The position numbers and the translations under genes were made by a program. The notes below the pieces were generated by a model that was not told the origin of the DNA, ran no database searches, and saw nothing but the letters and a program-made list of their open reading frames with translations. From Echinometra lucunter (taxonomy: Eukaryota > Echinodermata > Echinoidea > Camarodonta > Echinometridae), in assembly GCA_029962745.1 (NCBI GenBank), contig JAPZVO010000109.1:1-64000 (forward strand): a stretch of 64,000 nt of DNA. The letters are read 5' to 3'. Shown one piece after another: positions 7,986 through 16,200 of the stretch. Position 1 is the first letter of the stretch. Each line of letters opens with the position of its first letter.

Positions 7986-8049
7986 ATGGCGGACGTCCCA
8001 GAGCTTTTAACTGAATGGGGGTTCGAGGGTTTGATTGAAACGTTTGCAG
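7986..8049 (+). CDS. Exon 1 of the SAMD3-like gene (SAM helices 1-2)
   Basis: ATG in context CCCACCATGG opens 21 codons reading MADVPELLTEWGFEGLIETF then A, followed by one base and the donor G|GTAAGT. The peptide fits the first helices of a SAM domain. Its phase-1 end plus AA at the start of exon 2 makes a Glu codon, giving ..ETFAENEVDLETL.., an uninterrupted SAM sequence. This join decides the start and rules out the ATG at 11262, which lies in the polypyrimidine tract of intron 1. The donor lies only 14 bases from the end of a transposable element. Confidence 0.85.
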
Positions 8050-10213
8050 GTAAGTTTCATCATTGTCTCGCCCACCGGAGGTGAAGGCGAGACTAAGGGA
8101 TCCAAATGTCGTCCGTCCGTCGTCCGTCCGTCGTCCGTCCGTCGTCCGTCCGTCGTCCGTCCGTCGTCCGTCCGTCCGTCCATCACAAACGTTATGAAAG
8201 ATAACTTGGCAACCGTGACTCACTTTTCAACCAAACTTGGGTTGTAGATGCACTAAGGGGACCTGCATGTTATGGTCCAGTCAGAGGTCACATGGTAAGG
8301 TCAAAGGTCATTTCAGGTCAAACGTTAAAGTTTACGTGCAAGACTCTCTTATGACACAAAACTCTGCAACCGTGACTCACTTTTCAACCAAACTTGGGTT
8401 GTAGATGCCCTAAGCGGACCTGCATGTTATGCTCTAGTCAGAGGTCACATGGTAAGGTCAAAGGTCATTTTAGGTCAAACGTTAAAATTTACGTGCAAGA
8501 CTCTCTTATGACACAAAACTCTGCAACTGTGTGACACTGTTCAATCAAACTTGGGTTGTAGATGCACTAAGGGGACCTGCATCTTATTGTCCAGTCAGAG
8601 GTCACATGGTAAGGTCAAAGGTCATTTCAGGTCAAATGTTAAAGTTGACGTGCAAGACTCTCTTATCACACATAACTTTGCAACCGTGACTCACTTTTCA
8701 ACCAAACTTGGGTTGTAGATGCACTGAGGGGACCTGCATGTTATGGTCCAGTCAGAGGTCACATGGTAAGGTCAAAAGTCATTTCAGGTCAAACGTTGAA
8801 GTTTACGTGCAAGACTCTCTTATGACTCAAAACTCTGCAACCGTGTGACACTTATCTATCAAACTTGGGTTGTCGATGCACTAAGGGCACCTGCATGTTA
8901 TGGTCCAGTCATAGGTCACATGGTAAGGTCAAAGGTCATTTCAGGTCAAACGTTAAAGTTTACGTGCAAGACTCTCTTATGACACAAAACTCTGCAACCG
9001 TGTGACACTTATCTATCAAACTTGGGTTGTAGATGCACTAAGGGGACCTGCATGTTATGGTCCAGTCAGAGGTCACATGGTCAGGTCAAAGGTCATACAG
9101 GTCAAACGTTGAACGGTTAAAGTTTACGTGCAAGACTCTCTTATGACACAAAACTTTGCAACCGTGTCACACTTTTCAGTCAAACTTGGGTTGCAGATCA
9201 CTAAGGGGAAGTGCATGTTATCATTCTGTTGGACTTCACATGATAAGGTGAAAGGTCATTGGAGGTCATATGTTACAGATGTTTTCAAATTCTTGAATTT
9301 GCTTTTCCTCTGTCATTTCTTGTATTTCAAACGTTAAAGTTTACCTGCAAGACTCTCTTATGACGCATAACTTGGCACATGTTGCTGCAATAGCAACCAA
9401 ATTTGGGTGATAGATGCACTAGGGGTACATTCATGCTATTGTGCTGTCAGGTCACATGGTAAGGTGAAAGGTTATTTTAGGTCAAACTTTACGACCTGCA
9501 AGACTTTCTTGTGACATCAAACTTGGTTAGGGCAAGGGATGTACTTGGGGAAACTTTCGTGTTATTTAGCCACAGGTGGGCGAGACACAATCTTCCTATT
9601 GGCTTGTTTTTCTAGAAATCAACTTGCAGCTGCCAATTTATAGCACGTCCACAATGTAAAATCAAATGTTTGTATTTGTATTTTAATAACAGAATACGTA
9701 GACTTAAAAGTCGCATCATCGATGGCGATGCACGACGTACGCGTAGTCTAGATCTAAGTTAGATGTAGGGTCTACGTAGGCATGCGCCGTCTGCTTTACT
9801 TGGCCCGGGGAGCTCCTCCGCCGAAGGCGGCGGAGCTCATTAGCCTCTTACTTAACTTAACTTAACTCCGCTCCCTGAGTTACGTCTGTTATTTAGTCAA
9901 AATACATTAAGCAGTGGATCTGCTTTGAACATCATGATCGACACTGCACATGATGCGCGATGCACACTTGATGAAATTACTAGAATTTCAAATCAATTTC
10001 GAATCTTGTCCGATTCGCCATAATCCTTCATTCTTGTCTTGTGTACACATTGTAGAGCTCCTGATGCATGCGTATTGCAAGCTATACAATTAGATTATCG
10101 TTTAGTGCAGGAGCAGGGAAATTAAATGGTCATTTTTGCTTCATTTCGATCATATAGTTGTGTGCAAAGTATAAAGGATGGAATGAAGTTATTATTATTA
10201 TTATCATTATTAA

Positions 10214-13200: not shown

Positions 13201-16200
13201 CAGCTTCACAAATGCTGTGCTTGTTTACTTATCTTCCACTTATAATAGGGGATAAGGTAGATGAAGATGAGGTCTGTGATGTTTGGGAATTACTGTTAAT
13301 TCTTCTTGACATATATAAAACAATAACAGCACGTAGTATTAGTAAGGAGGCTACCTTCCTACTGAAAGCCCAGATCAGAGAACATCACCACTTGTTTAAG
13401 GAAATTTTTCCTGAGTATCCTCTTACACCAAAGCAGCATCACATGATACATTACCCAAGAGCAATACAGTTACTTGGCCCTCTCTCACCATTCTCATCAA
13501 TCCGGTTTGAAGGTAAACACAAACCGTGCAAAACATATGCAAAGATGTCATCAAATTACATAAACATATCAAAAACTGTTGCAAAGAAGCATCAAGTAGG
13601 TCAGAGTTATGCCTTCCTGCTGAAGCAAAATGTTATGCTCAGAGGAGTAGAGGTCTTTGATCAAGAATTTGTTCAACCAGCAAGCTTGCTTGATGCAGAG
13701 GAGGTATATGCATTGCTTGAATGTCCTATCGATGAAAGTATAATAATGGCTGCTGCTGTGGAGGCTAATGGATACAAGATCAGACCAGAATCTGTCATAA
13801 TTACTGGATGGAATGAAGAATATCCCGAATTCGGAAAAGTAGAACATATTGTTCTAAGGGACTCTACCATCAAGTTGGTAATTCAGCCATGGACAACTTT
13901 ACGCTTCCGTCGTCATTACCATAGCTATGCAGTTAATACAGCTCCTGGCACTGGACTCACATTGAAAAATTTGGAAGAATTGAACGACTTCAGACCAGTA
14001 CATGCAGTGAAGTCTTATTGCGAGACAGATGGAAATAGCTACATTGCTGTACGAAACAATCTTGTGTAGGACAAGTCTGCATTTTCTGTATGTATTAGGT
14101 GGGTAATATATTTAAACCCTGCTGACAGGGTTCAAATTCGGCTGTATGCTGTATTTAATGCTCCACATTTTGAAGCAACTGCTACACAAAATTGGTCTTG
14201 TACAATATGTATAGCATTTTTTCCAATGGTAAAATATAGGCCTACATGTTAAAGCAACAAATTGATAACTGAGAACTGCTATACAATTTTTTTAGCCGAA
14301 TTTGAACCCTGCCTGCCAATCAAGAAGTCAATACAAATGTGCAATGTCAATCTTGCAAGTGGTTAATTCAACATAAAGACAAATGCATAAATGTGCTTTG
14401 TTTAATTTCTCAAACACCAAGTGATACATGTATGGCTTATAACTCATCTCATTTAGGCTGAATTCAGAATGTGGGGTGTGAATGAACAGGATTCATACTT
14501 GTACATATCATTTTGGGCAAACAGGATTCATTTCCACAATGCTATGAATGAATCCCTAAGGCTGCAGGCATGAGATAATTGAAATTTTTCATGCATCTCC
14601 CTTCCCAATTTCTCAGTATATTCAGGATTTTTAGATAACTCAATCAGCCTATTTAATTTTTCTGTTATATGCATTTACTTCCCAGGATAATGTAATTGCA
14701 GTGGTTGCGCATACTATCCCAAGTTCAACAAAGAGGCCAACACAAAATGTGTCCTCCAGTGATGAGTCCATGTCTGAGCGGAAAGTGGAGAAACTCGGTC
14801 AGGTGCCTGTAACTATTGAGTAATATGTGCTCTCAAAATCACATTATTTTGTTGTAAATCGGCATATGTTTGTTTAATCGTCCAGCATTTCCTTCAGAAT
14901 CAATTAAGACTTCTATTTGAATAGTAATTTGATCATCATTAACTCCTGCTAGTCATTCCGGCTTTGGCATTGTGATCAGACCTAATAAAAAATCAAAGAT
15001 TTTTTCCGAAAAAAAAGAGGTGGAGTCTGTCATAGAGTCTTGTTAGAAATTGACAAGGGAGACAAAAAAAGATACTAAAGGGCATAACATTTTCAGGTCG
15101 TTTGTTGCTTCTCCTAAATTAACAATGATGGAAATATTATACATGTGTGTAAGCTATGTTAACAACTATTTGCACCTTTTGGCATGTAAAGCATTATAAT
15201 GAAAGTGTGGCAATTTTCATTTTATAGCCAAAAGGTATCTCCAGCCGAGAAGGAAAGAAACAGAAGCGCTTGTTTGTAAGTATAGATCCTATACTGTGTG
15301 AATCACCAAAAAAAATATATTTTATTTTATTTTTACTATTACAAGAATCATAGAAAATTGTGTTATTGTGCTCATTATAGAAAAATAATAGAGAGAAAAA
15401 AATGTTTGTCCTCCATTGCAAACCCCCTATATTGATTTTTTTTTACTGTACAAATACATACTAAATTTTTAATTGCAGACATTTCCCTTATTTGTAATTT
15501 GCTCAACTTAAAATACATTTTAGAAGTTATAAGACAAACATTTACACAGACAATGTTAAACTATACCGGAAAAGAAGTATACTTTATGTCATATAAACTG
15601 TTGAACCTGTTAAGTATAGTTTATCAGTTACATTTTTTTTACGCCTTAGTGTTTGATGTTACTGCTCAGGGCCGGTTGGTAACTACCCTTTTCACATAGA
15701 TCTGCATACTTGTATCACCACAGGGTCTTTGTTCCTGTCTTGTTCATATTCAAGGCATCCTGTTGTATCAGTTGGTGATTCTTGATGTGTTTTGTTTCCT
15801 TGTCCGTTGAACTCAGCTATAAATGATACATCATGAACATGACACTTAATATACCGGGTACTTTTGTAGCACAATACCGGTACCAAAAACCTAACGGTAC
15901 CAAGAACAAAGTTTATTTTCAACAAATCTAAGTCTAACTTTGTGTGTTCTTTGACTTTTGGGAGAACCTAGGGGTGAAGCTAAAGAGAGTAAATTATTCT
16001 TAACTTTAAAGCATGTATGCTTGGAAACATTTCATATCAGAATTCAGTGTGCTGATTGTGTAGCTATCGATTGTTGCATGCACTGGTTGTGCAGGTACAA
16101 ACAAATTGAATTCAATTTACTGTATGCCACAAATTTTCCAGATCTATTAATAATTAATTTTCCATTTGTAATCCATATTACAGGACATCAGAGGCATTAT

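Follow-up and report, generated by a model that had tools for sequence, protein, structure and literature searches.

How did a transposase come to share its first exons with a host-like protein, and to which of the two does the gene belong? The question is raised by a locus of the sea urchin Echinometra lucunter, within the first 64,000 nt of contig JAPZVO010000109.1 (the window), where two exons coding for a SAM-like (sterile alpha motif) domain lead both to a series of SAMD3-like exons and, across a splice donor that stays open in frame, to a transposase. The initial annotation had described this arrangement as an in-frame fusion of SAM, C2H2 fingers and transposase from which splice choice could make two proteins. 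From the DNA sequence and database protein records, the locus is predicted to encode both a SAM-finger-transposase and a SAM plus SAMD3-like protein, and with moderate confidence we take it to be most likely a CACTA-type transposon unit that is switched by use of the exon 2 donor.

Two frames that part at one donor

Exons 1 and 2 join in phase, and together they match SAM_1 with an E value of 2.7e-4 (21.7 bits, slightly under the 23-bit Pfam cut-off). Exon 2 ends in phase 0 at GAT/GTGAGT, as first annotated. This donor, then called consensus, is sound though not ideal, agreeing with seven of nine consensus positions, as do five of the nine other donors of the gene. Left unspliced, the frame stays open across 11543/11544 to a TAG at 14067-14069, which bears out the earlier count of 842 codons from the donor on (stop included) and gives a SAM-transposase product of 944 amino acids. 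The stop-to-stop frame is 938 amino acids long; among 20 sequences of 64 kb generated by an order-1 Markov model, the longest run was 253. With the donor used, exon 2 is followed by nine further exons to 21183, a stop-free assembly of 557 amino acids in which ten of ten introns are GT-AG, and the alternative isoform is thus still encoded, as had been claimed. Both frames are intact, have exons 1 and 2 in common and part exactly at the exon 2 donor. A single AATAAA lies at 14984 within 14070-16200 and is given no weight, since such signals arise by chance in AT-rich DNA.

The read-through frame opens with two C2H2 fingers that had been called perfect; both do fit CX2CX12HX4H, though their Pfam scores fall under the cut-offs, finger 2 giving weak zf-C2H2_12 and zf-C2H2 matches. 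No Met precedes the first of them, as was noted at the outset: the first Met downstream of the donor is residue 32, directly past finger 1, so a translation start inside the read-through frame would lose that finger. Farther on comes the RAG1/Transib-like catalytic fold that characterizes CMC transposons. In the numbering of the 944-residue product its acidic residues are D411 (12465-12467), D506 (12750-12752) and E759 (13509-13511), with a C(2)C and an H(3-4)H pair between the second D and the E. Passages of PMC12730594 and PMC4592977 give this arrangement as the rule for CACTA/EnSpm (CMC) transposases. The predicted BAH-like fold at the C-terminus would equip a RAG1-type enzyme with its own chromatin reader; a literature search of open-licence PMC papers, the scope of all such searches here, found no BAH domain with a CACTA transposase.

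The junction in related proteins

Relatives came from three protein searches, and the lists are lower bounds because each search scored only the roughly 8,000 best word-sharing candidates. On the transposase side there are at least P0001-P0008 and P0014-P0017. Body-side relatives, among the matches listed, are P0009 of Lytechinus variegatus, P0010, two icefish proteins and one firefly protein (P0013); no record named SAMD3 was among these five matches, and the name SAMD3-like follows the initial annotation.

The initial annotation had suggested looking for the same junction in related genomes, and the junction of SAM, finger and transposase does recur, in starfish, sea cucumber and other records 37-65% identical to the window. 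SAM stands ahead of the fingers in Asterias rubens P0004 and Holothuria leucospilota P0006, two database gene models that both begin in SAM exon 1. In P0002, P0005, P0015 and P0016 the frame comes into exon 2 from upstream DNA, and the residue ahead of ENE/DNE (S, S, A and S, respectively; P in the window) implies the same exon 2 start, as an NCA/G acceptor would spell. P0001 keeps the exon 2 end, P0014 has a trace only and P0017 none of it, and P0003, P0007 and P0008 start further in. P0006 also runs past the transposase into the SAMD3-like body (38% identity over 409 columns against the window body), so the order of SAM, transposase and SAMD3-like body is common to P0006 and the window.

These records bear directly on the idea that the transposase has a transcript to itself, headed by a separate first exon, with the open frame over the donor a by-product of read-through in the past. 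In P0016 SAM and finger are set apart by a hydrophobic stretch resembling an intron, which would suit such a transcript; the missing Met ahead of finger 1 would not, nor would the Asterias and Holothuria gene models, which begin in SAM exon 1 and continue into the transposase, and we regard the idea as improbable.

A view of the splice choice is given by P0001 (...EVEGEA/VSLNTFPCFKC), presumably an urchin record, and urchin P0009 (...EVEGEA/VESVRLK), which agree at 24 of 26 residues earlier in exon 2 and then show a short length difference. The same exon enters the transposase once and the SAMD3-like body once, and the two records part either at the donor codon itself or no more than one codon away. 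This pair and the anatomy of the window together present two frames with the same first exons and one splice choice, as in En/Spm, and lend support to the claim of two proteins from one locus, the read-through itself being predicted. In the P0009 gene model another, non-SAM-like N-terminus replaces SAM exon 1 ahead of exon 2. P0010 joins SAM and body in one 503-aa frame on a contig of 2,773 bases, too short for introns like those of the window, and thus probably derives from spliced RNA.

There may also be a trace of the donor in the proteins themselves. Translated, a GTNAGY donor reads Val-Ser, and these two residues occur no more than 10 residues ahead of CFKC in six of nine proteins (P0003, P0007, P0008 and P0017, with no CFKC anchor or no stretch ahead of it, were left out of the count). 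Shuffling up to 60 upstream residues 20,000 times never gave a count above three, a result that is not a strict probability, since the pattern was first spotted by eye and the rows are related. The Val-Ser donor offers a simple signature for finding further such units.

The junction tells against a host SAMD3-like gene into whose intron 2 a transposase was recently inserted, its frame joined to that of exon 2 through chance or capture, as the initial annotation had in part proposed. The SAMD3-like exons are indeed complete around the transposase, as that history would have it, but the same junction is found in Asterias, Holothuria and at least four others (P0002, P0005, P0015, P0016), with identities of 37-57%, rather than being confined to one lineage, and the urchin pair splits at the same point. 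Its recurrence in divergent relatives largely refutes a recent insertion, which we now consider very improbable.

Tree, ends and copies of the locus

A harder choice is posed by an old domesticated gene, that is, a CACTA-type element taken over by an echinoderm ancestor and given a host role, with both products and the splice choice kept. The Holothuria gene model has the same order, there is one locus in the window, and the scanned flanks hold no terminal repeats, all of which would fit. So would the foldback in intron 1 (10535-11122, its end some 180 bases short of exon 2): its 97-base arms match at only 85/97 positions, which points to age if they were once the same, and yet neither the exons nor the 841-codon frame are broken. 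Set against domestication are a catalytic set that is complete in the window, lineages that are deep and divergent, and the transposase tree. In that tree the window groups with P0001 and Amphiura (100/99), leaving Asterias outside. Forcing Amphiura together with Asterias is rejected (approximately unbiased test, p-AU 0.0009), as are three wider constrained groupings (p-AU 9.5e-6, 0.0055 and 0.0004). Starfish and brittle stars are sister groups, and the transposase tree thus appears to conflict with the accepted echinoderm tree, which we count in favor of an element. P0017 was omitted from the second tree, and both trees used shortened sequences of P0006 (890 residues) and P0004 (698 residues). 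We hold domestication to be possible, if rather unlikely.

A number of points weigh against the transposon unit that we favor. The tree argument needs P0001 to be an urchin protein, which was inferred from its exon 2 alone, and the constrained groups were picked after the first tree had been seen. Val-Ser, noticed by eye before its test, is missing in P0005 and P0006 and lies farther upstream in P0016; Lytechinus P0009 is without the first half of SAM; and the Asterias record stops short of the catalytic Glu. The window scores 14.2 bits for Transposase_21 against a cut-off of 28.6, and its DUF4218 score is likewise under the Pfam cut-off. When 7000-7985 was aligned locally against the reverse complement of 21184-26000, no terminal inverted repeats stood out from shuffles (score 33; best of 60 shuffles 34), and a search for 12/14-match ends starting CAC, CCC or CAG, between 4000-7985 and 21184-27000, gave 3 pairs against 0-5 in 20 shuffles. 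Within the window there is no second copy of the locus except for a duplicated piece of the last exon. Finally, the introns hold nested insertions and the exons are intact, a pattern that fits a host gene under selection too; an element carrying an insertion along under selection would look alike. With regard to the family assignment, eight of 12 aligned members match Transposase_21 at E<=0.1 (best 1.2e-4), and in P0004, P0007 and P0016, where the pattern matched an earlier GDN or SDN, the second D was placed by alignment.

Passages of PMC12730594 describe CMC elements as having terminal inverted repeats that are mostly CA..TG and target duplications of 2-5 bp. None of the three candidate end pairs has a 2-bp duplication, the sole length checked, and the ends of the element may be decayed or further out. 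An AT-rich block at 23394-23780, in which TTTAAACAA/TTGTTTAAA motifs recur and in part form units of 75 bases, was tried as a sub-terminal array on the strength of its TTTAAACAA motif and set aside, there being no 5'-end counterpart above chance. The 25 longest of 705 inverted pairs in 3000-30000 are the foldback and microsatellites.

Other repeats accompany the gene. Intron 1 carries at 8064-9587 a repeat bounded by a 13-bp inverted pair (TGTCTCGCCCACC/GGTGGGCGAGACA) with tandem units of about 157 bp inside, probably a nested non-autonomous DNA element, and intron 6 has a perfect 155-base tandem duplication at 17772-18085. Just downstream of the last exon, 21553-21744 is 99% identical to its part 20923-21114, a recent local duplication. 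Farther away are a minus-strand frame at 24321-24608 that weakly matches the DUF4817 helix-turn-helix (E 0.0033, under the cut-off) and two short-period repeat arrays (35684-36095 and 39649-40219) with similar proline-rich frames in opposite orientation.

The features of the locus are collected in the table. The match to Holothuria P0006 runs from the end of exon 4 onward, and exon 3 was picked on frame and splice signals, without support from relatives. A different set of exons, using 14803 and 18436 as donors, did not keep the frame and was replaced.

Table 1. Coordinates of the predicted exons and protein domains in the window
Feature	Position	Strand	Remarks
Exon 1: start codon, first half of SAM-like domain	7986..8049	+	donor CAG/GTAAGT, 9/9 consensus; common to both predicted products
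Exon 2: second half of SAM-like domain, acidic linker	11299..11543	+	acceptor TTTCCAG; common to both predicted products
Exon 2 donor GTGAGT	11544..11549	+	phase 0; reads Val-Ser if unspliced; Val-Ser no more than 10 residues ahead of finger 1 in 6 of 9 proteins
Read-through frame: two C2H2 fingers, CACTA/CMC-type transposase, BAH-like C-terminus	11544..14069	+	841 codons plus stop
C2H2 finger 1, CX2CX12HX4H	11568..11633	+	residues 9-30 past donor; pattern read from sequence
C2H2 finger 2, CX2CX12HX4H	11667..11732	+	residues 42-63 past donor; pattern read from sequence
RAG1/Transib-like catalytic region	12162..13541	+	D411, D506, C526xxC529, H735xxxH739, E759
BAH-like C-terminal domain	13641..14045	+	predicted fold
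Exon 3	14686..14802	+	GT-AG, phase 0 from exon 2; no similarity to relatives
Exon 4	15228..15275	+	GT-AG, frame kept; end falls within P0006 match
Exon 5	16184..16326	+	GT-AG; in 409-column, 38% identity match to Holothuria P0006
Exon 6	16676..16763	+	GT-AG; within P0006 match
Exon 7	18248..18437	+	GT-AG; tblastn to P0006
Exon 8	18788..18966	+	GT-AG; tblastn to P0006
Exon 9	19242..19404	+	GT-AG; tblastn to P0006
Exon 10	20042..20160	+	GT-AG; tblastn to P0006
Exon 11 with stop	20866..21183	+	tblastn to P0006, E 2e-21

Known systems and a possible mechanism

The SAM-transposase layout is shared and old, not a fusion of recent date or due to chance, and it is most likely a variant of the two-product plan of En/Spm. 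In that maize element the first intron of tnpA contains the tnpD frames. Passages of PMC1636069 describe a single transcription unit, alternatively spliced, whose two proteins are essential for transposition. The predicted urchin unit resembles it in having one unit, a splice choice and two products. It differs in that both products carry a SAM-like domain, the second being SAMD3-like, in the C2H2 fingers and BAH-like end of the transposase, and in that the flanks scanned yielded no terminus of CACTA type. An animal parallel, again from passages of PMC1636069, is SmTRC1 of Schistosoma mansoni, a CACTA-type element with a Transposase_21-type enzyme and alternatively spliced further proteins, for which related matches are reported in sea urchin, zebrafish, Ciona and Aedes. 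According to the same passages no relatives of two of its short proteins were found in other animal or fungal elements, whereas relatives of the accessory-like protein here are present among sea urchin, icefish and firefly records.

RAG1/RAG2 and the RAG-like transposons offer a further likeness, in the RAG1-type catalytic fold with its C(2)C and H(3-4)H (passages of PMC12730594). In RAG-like transposons the transposase comes with a partner protein (passages of PMC7204232); the candidate partner here differs in being SAMD3-like and in having exons in common with the transposase. The firefly protein P0013 likewise joins SAM to a long body, with 22% identity over 91% of the window protein. Set beside such SAM plus SAMD3-like proteins, the window gene is distinct in also carrying a transposase frame in its second intron. 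Host-transposase fusion genes join a non-transposase domain to a transposase; here, by contrast, the junction is predicted to arise by reading through a usable donor, and it occurs in two named echinoderm classes. The literature searches found no SAM domain or sterile alpha motif with a CACTA/EnSpm transposase, no sterile alpha motif-transposase fusion with alternative splicing and, judged at listing level, nothing linking SAMD3 with a transposon.

How might such a unit work? One promoter would drive both products. Retention of the intron, with the donor left unspliced, would yield the SAM-finger-transposase protein, and use of the donor the SAM plus SAMD3-like protein, which by analogy with TNPA in maize En/Spm may act as an accessory DNA-binding partner. 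The nearest solved folds to the SAM-like domain, in a low-confidence model of P0010, are the SAMs of BICC1, ANKS3 and tankyrase, which form polymers. A SAM-like domain on both products could let the transposase and the accessory protein assemble at the element ends, and the BAH-like end may read chromatin. A bolder proposal, which we put forward tentatively and think unlikely to hold in full, is that this is an animal CACTA-type two-protein machine, linked by a SAM placed on both proteins through one retained donor, and that animal SAM plus SAMD3-like proteins, vertebrate SAMD3 included, are its tamed accessory proteins, as RAG1/RAG2 are of theirs.

If this is true, animals too would have, across echinoderm classes, the En/Spm device by which one gene makes two proteins through a single splice choice, and the SAM on the transposase and its partner would be the physical link between them. 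RAG2 has its own PHD reader, and the urchin enzyme would be one more RAG1 relative, with a likely chromatin-reading BAH end. SAMD3-like proteins, for their part, would gain a testable origin.
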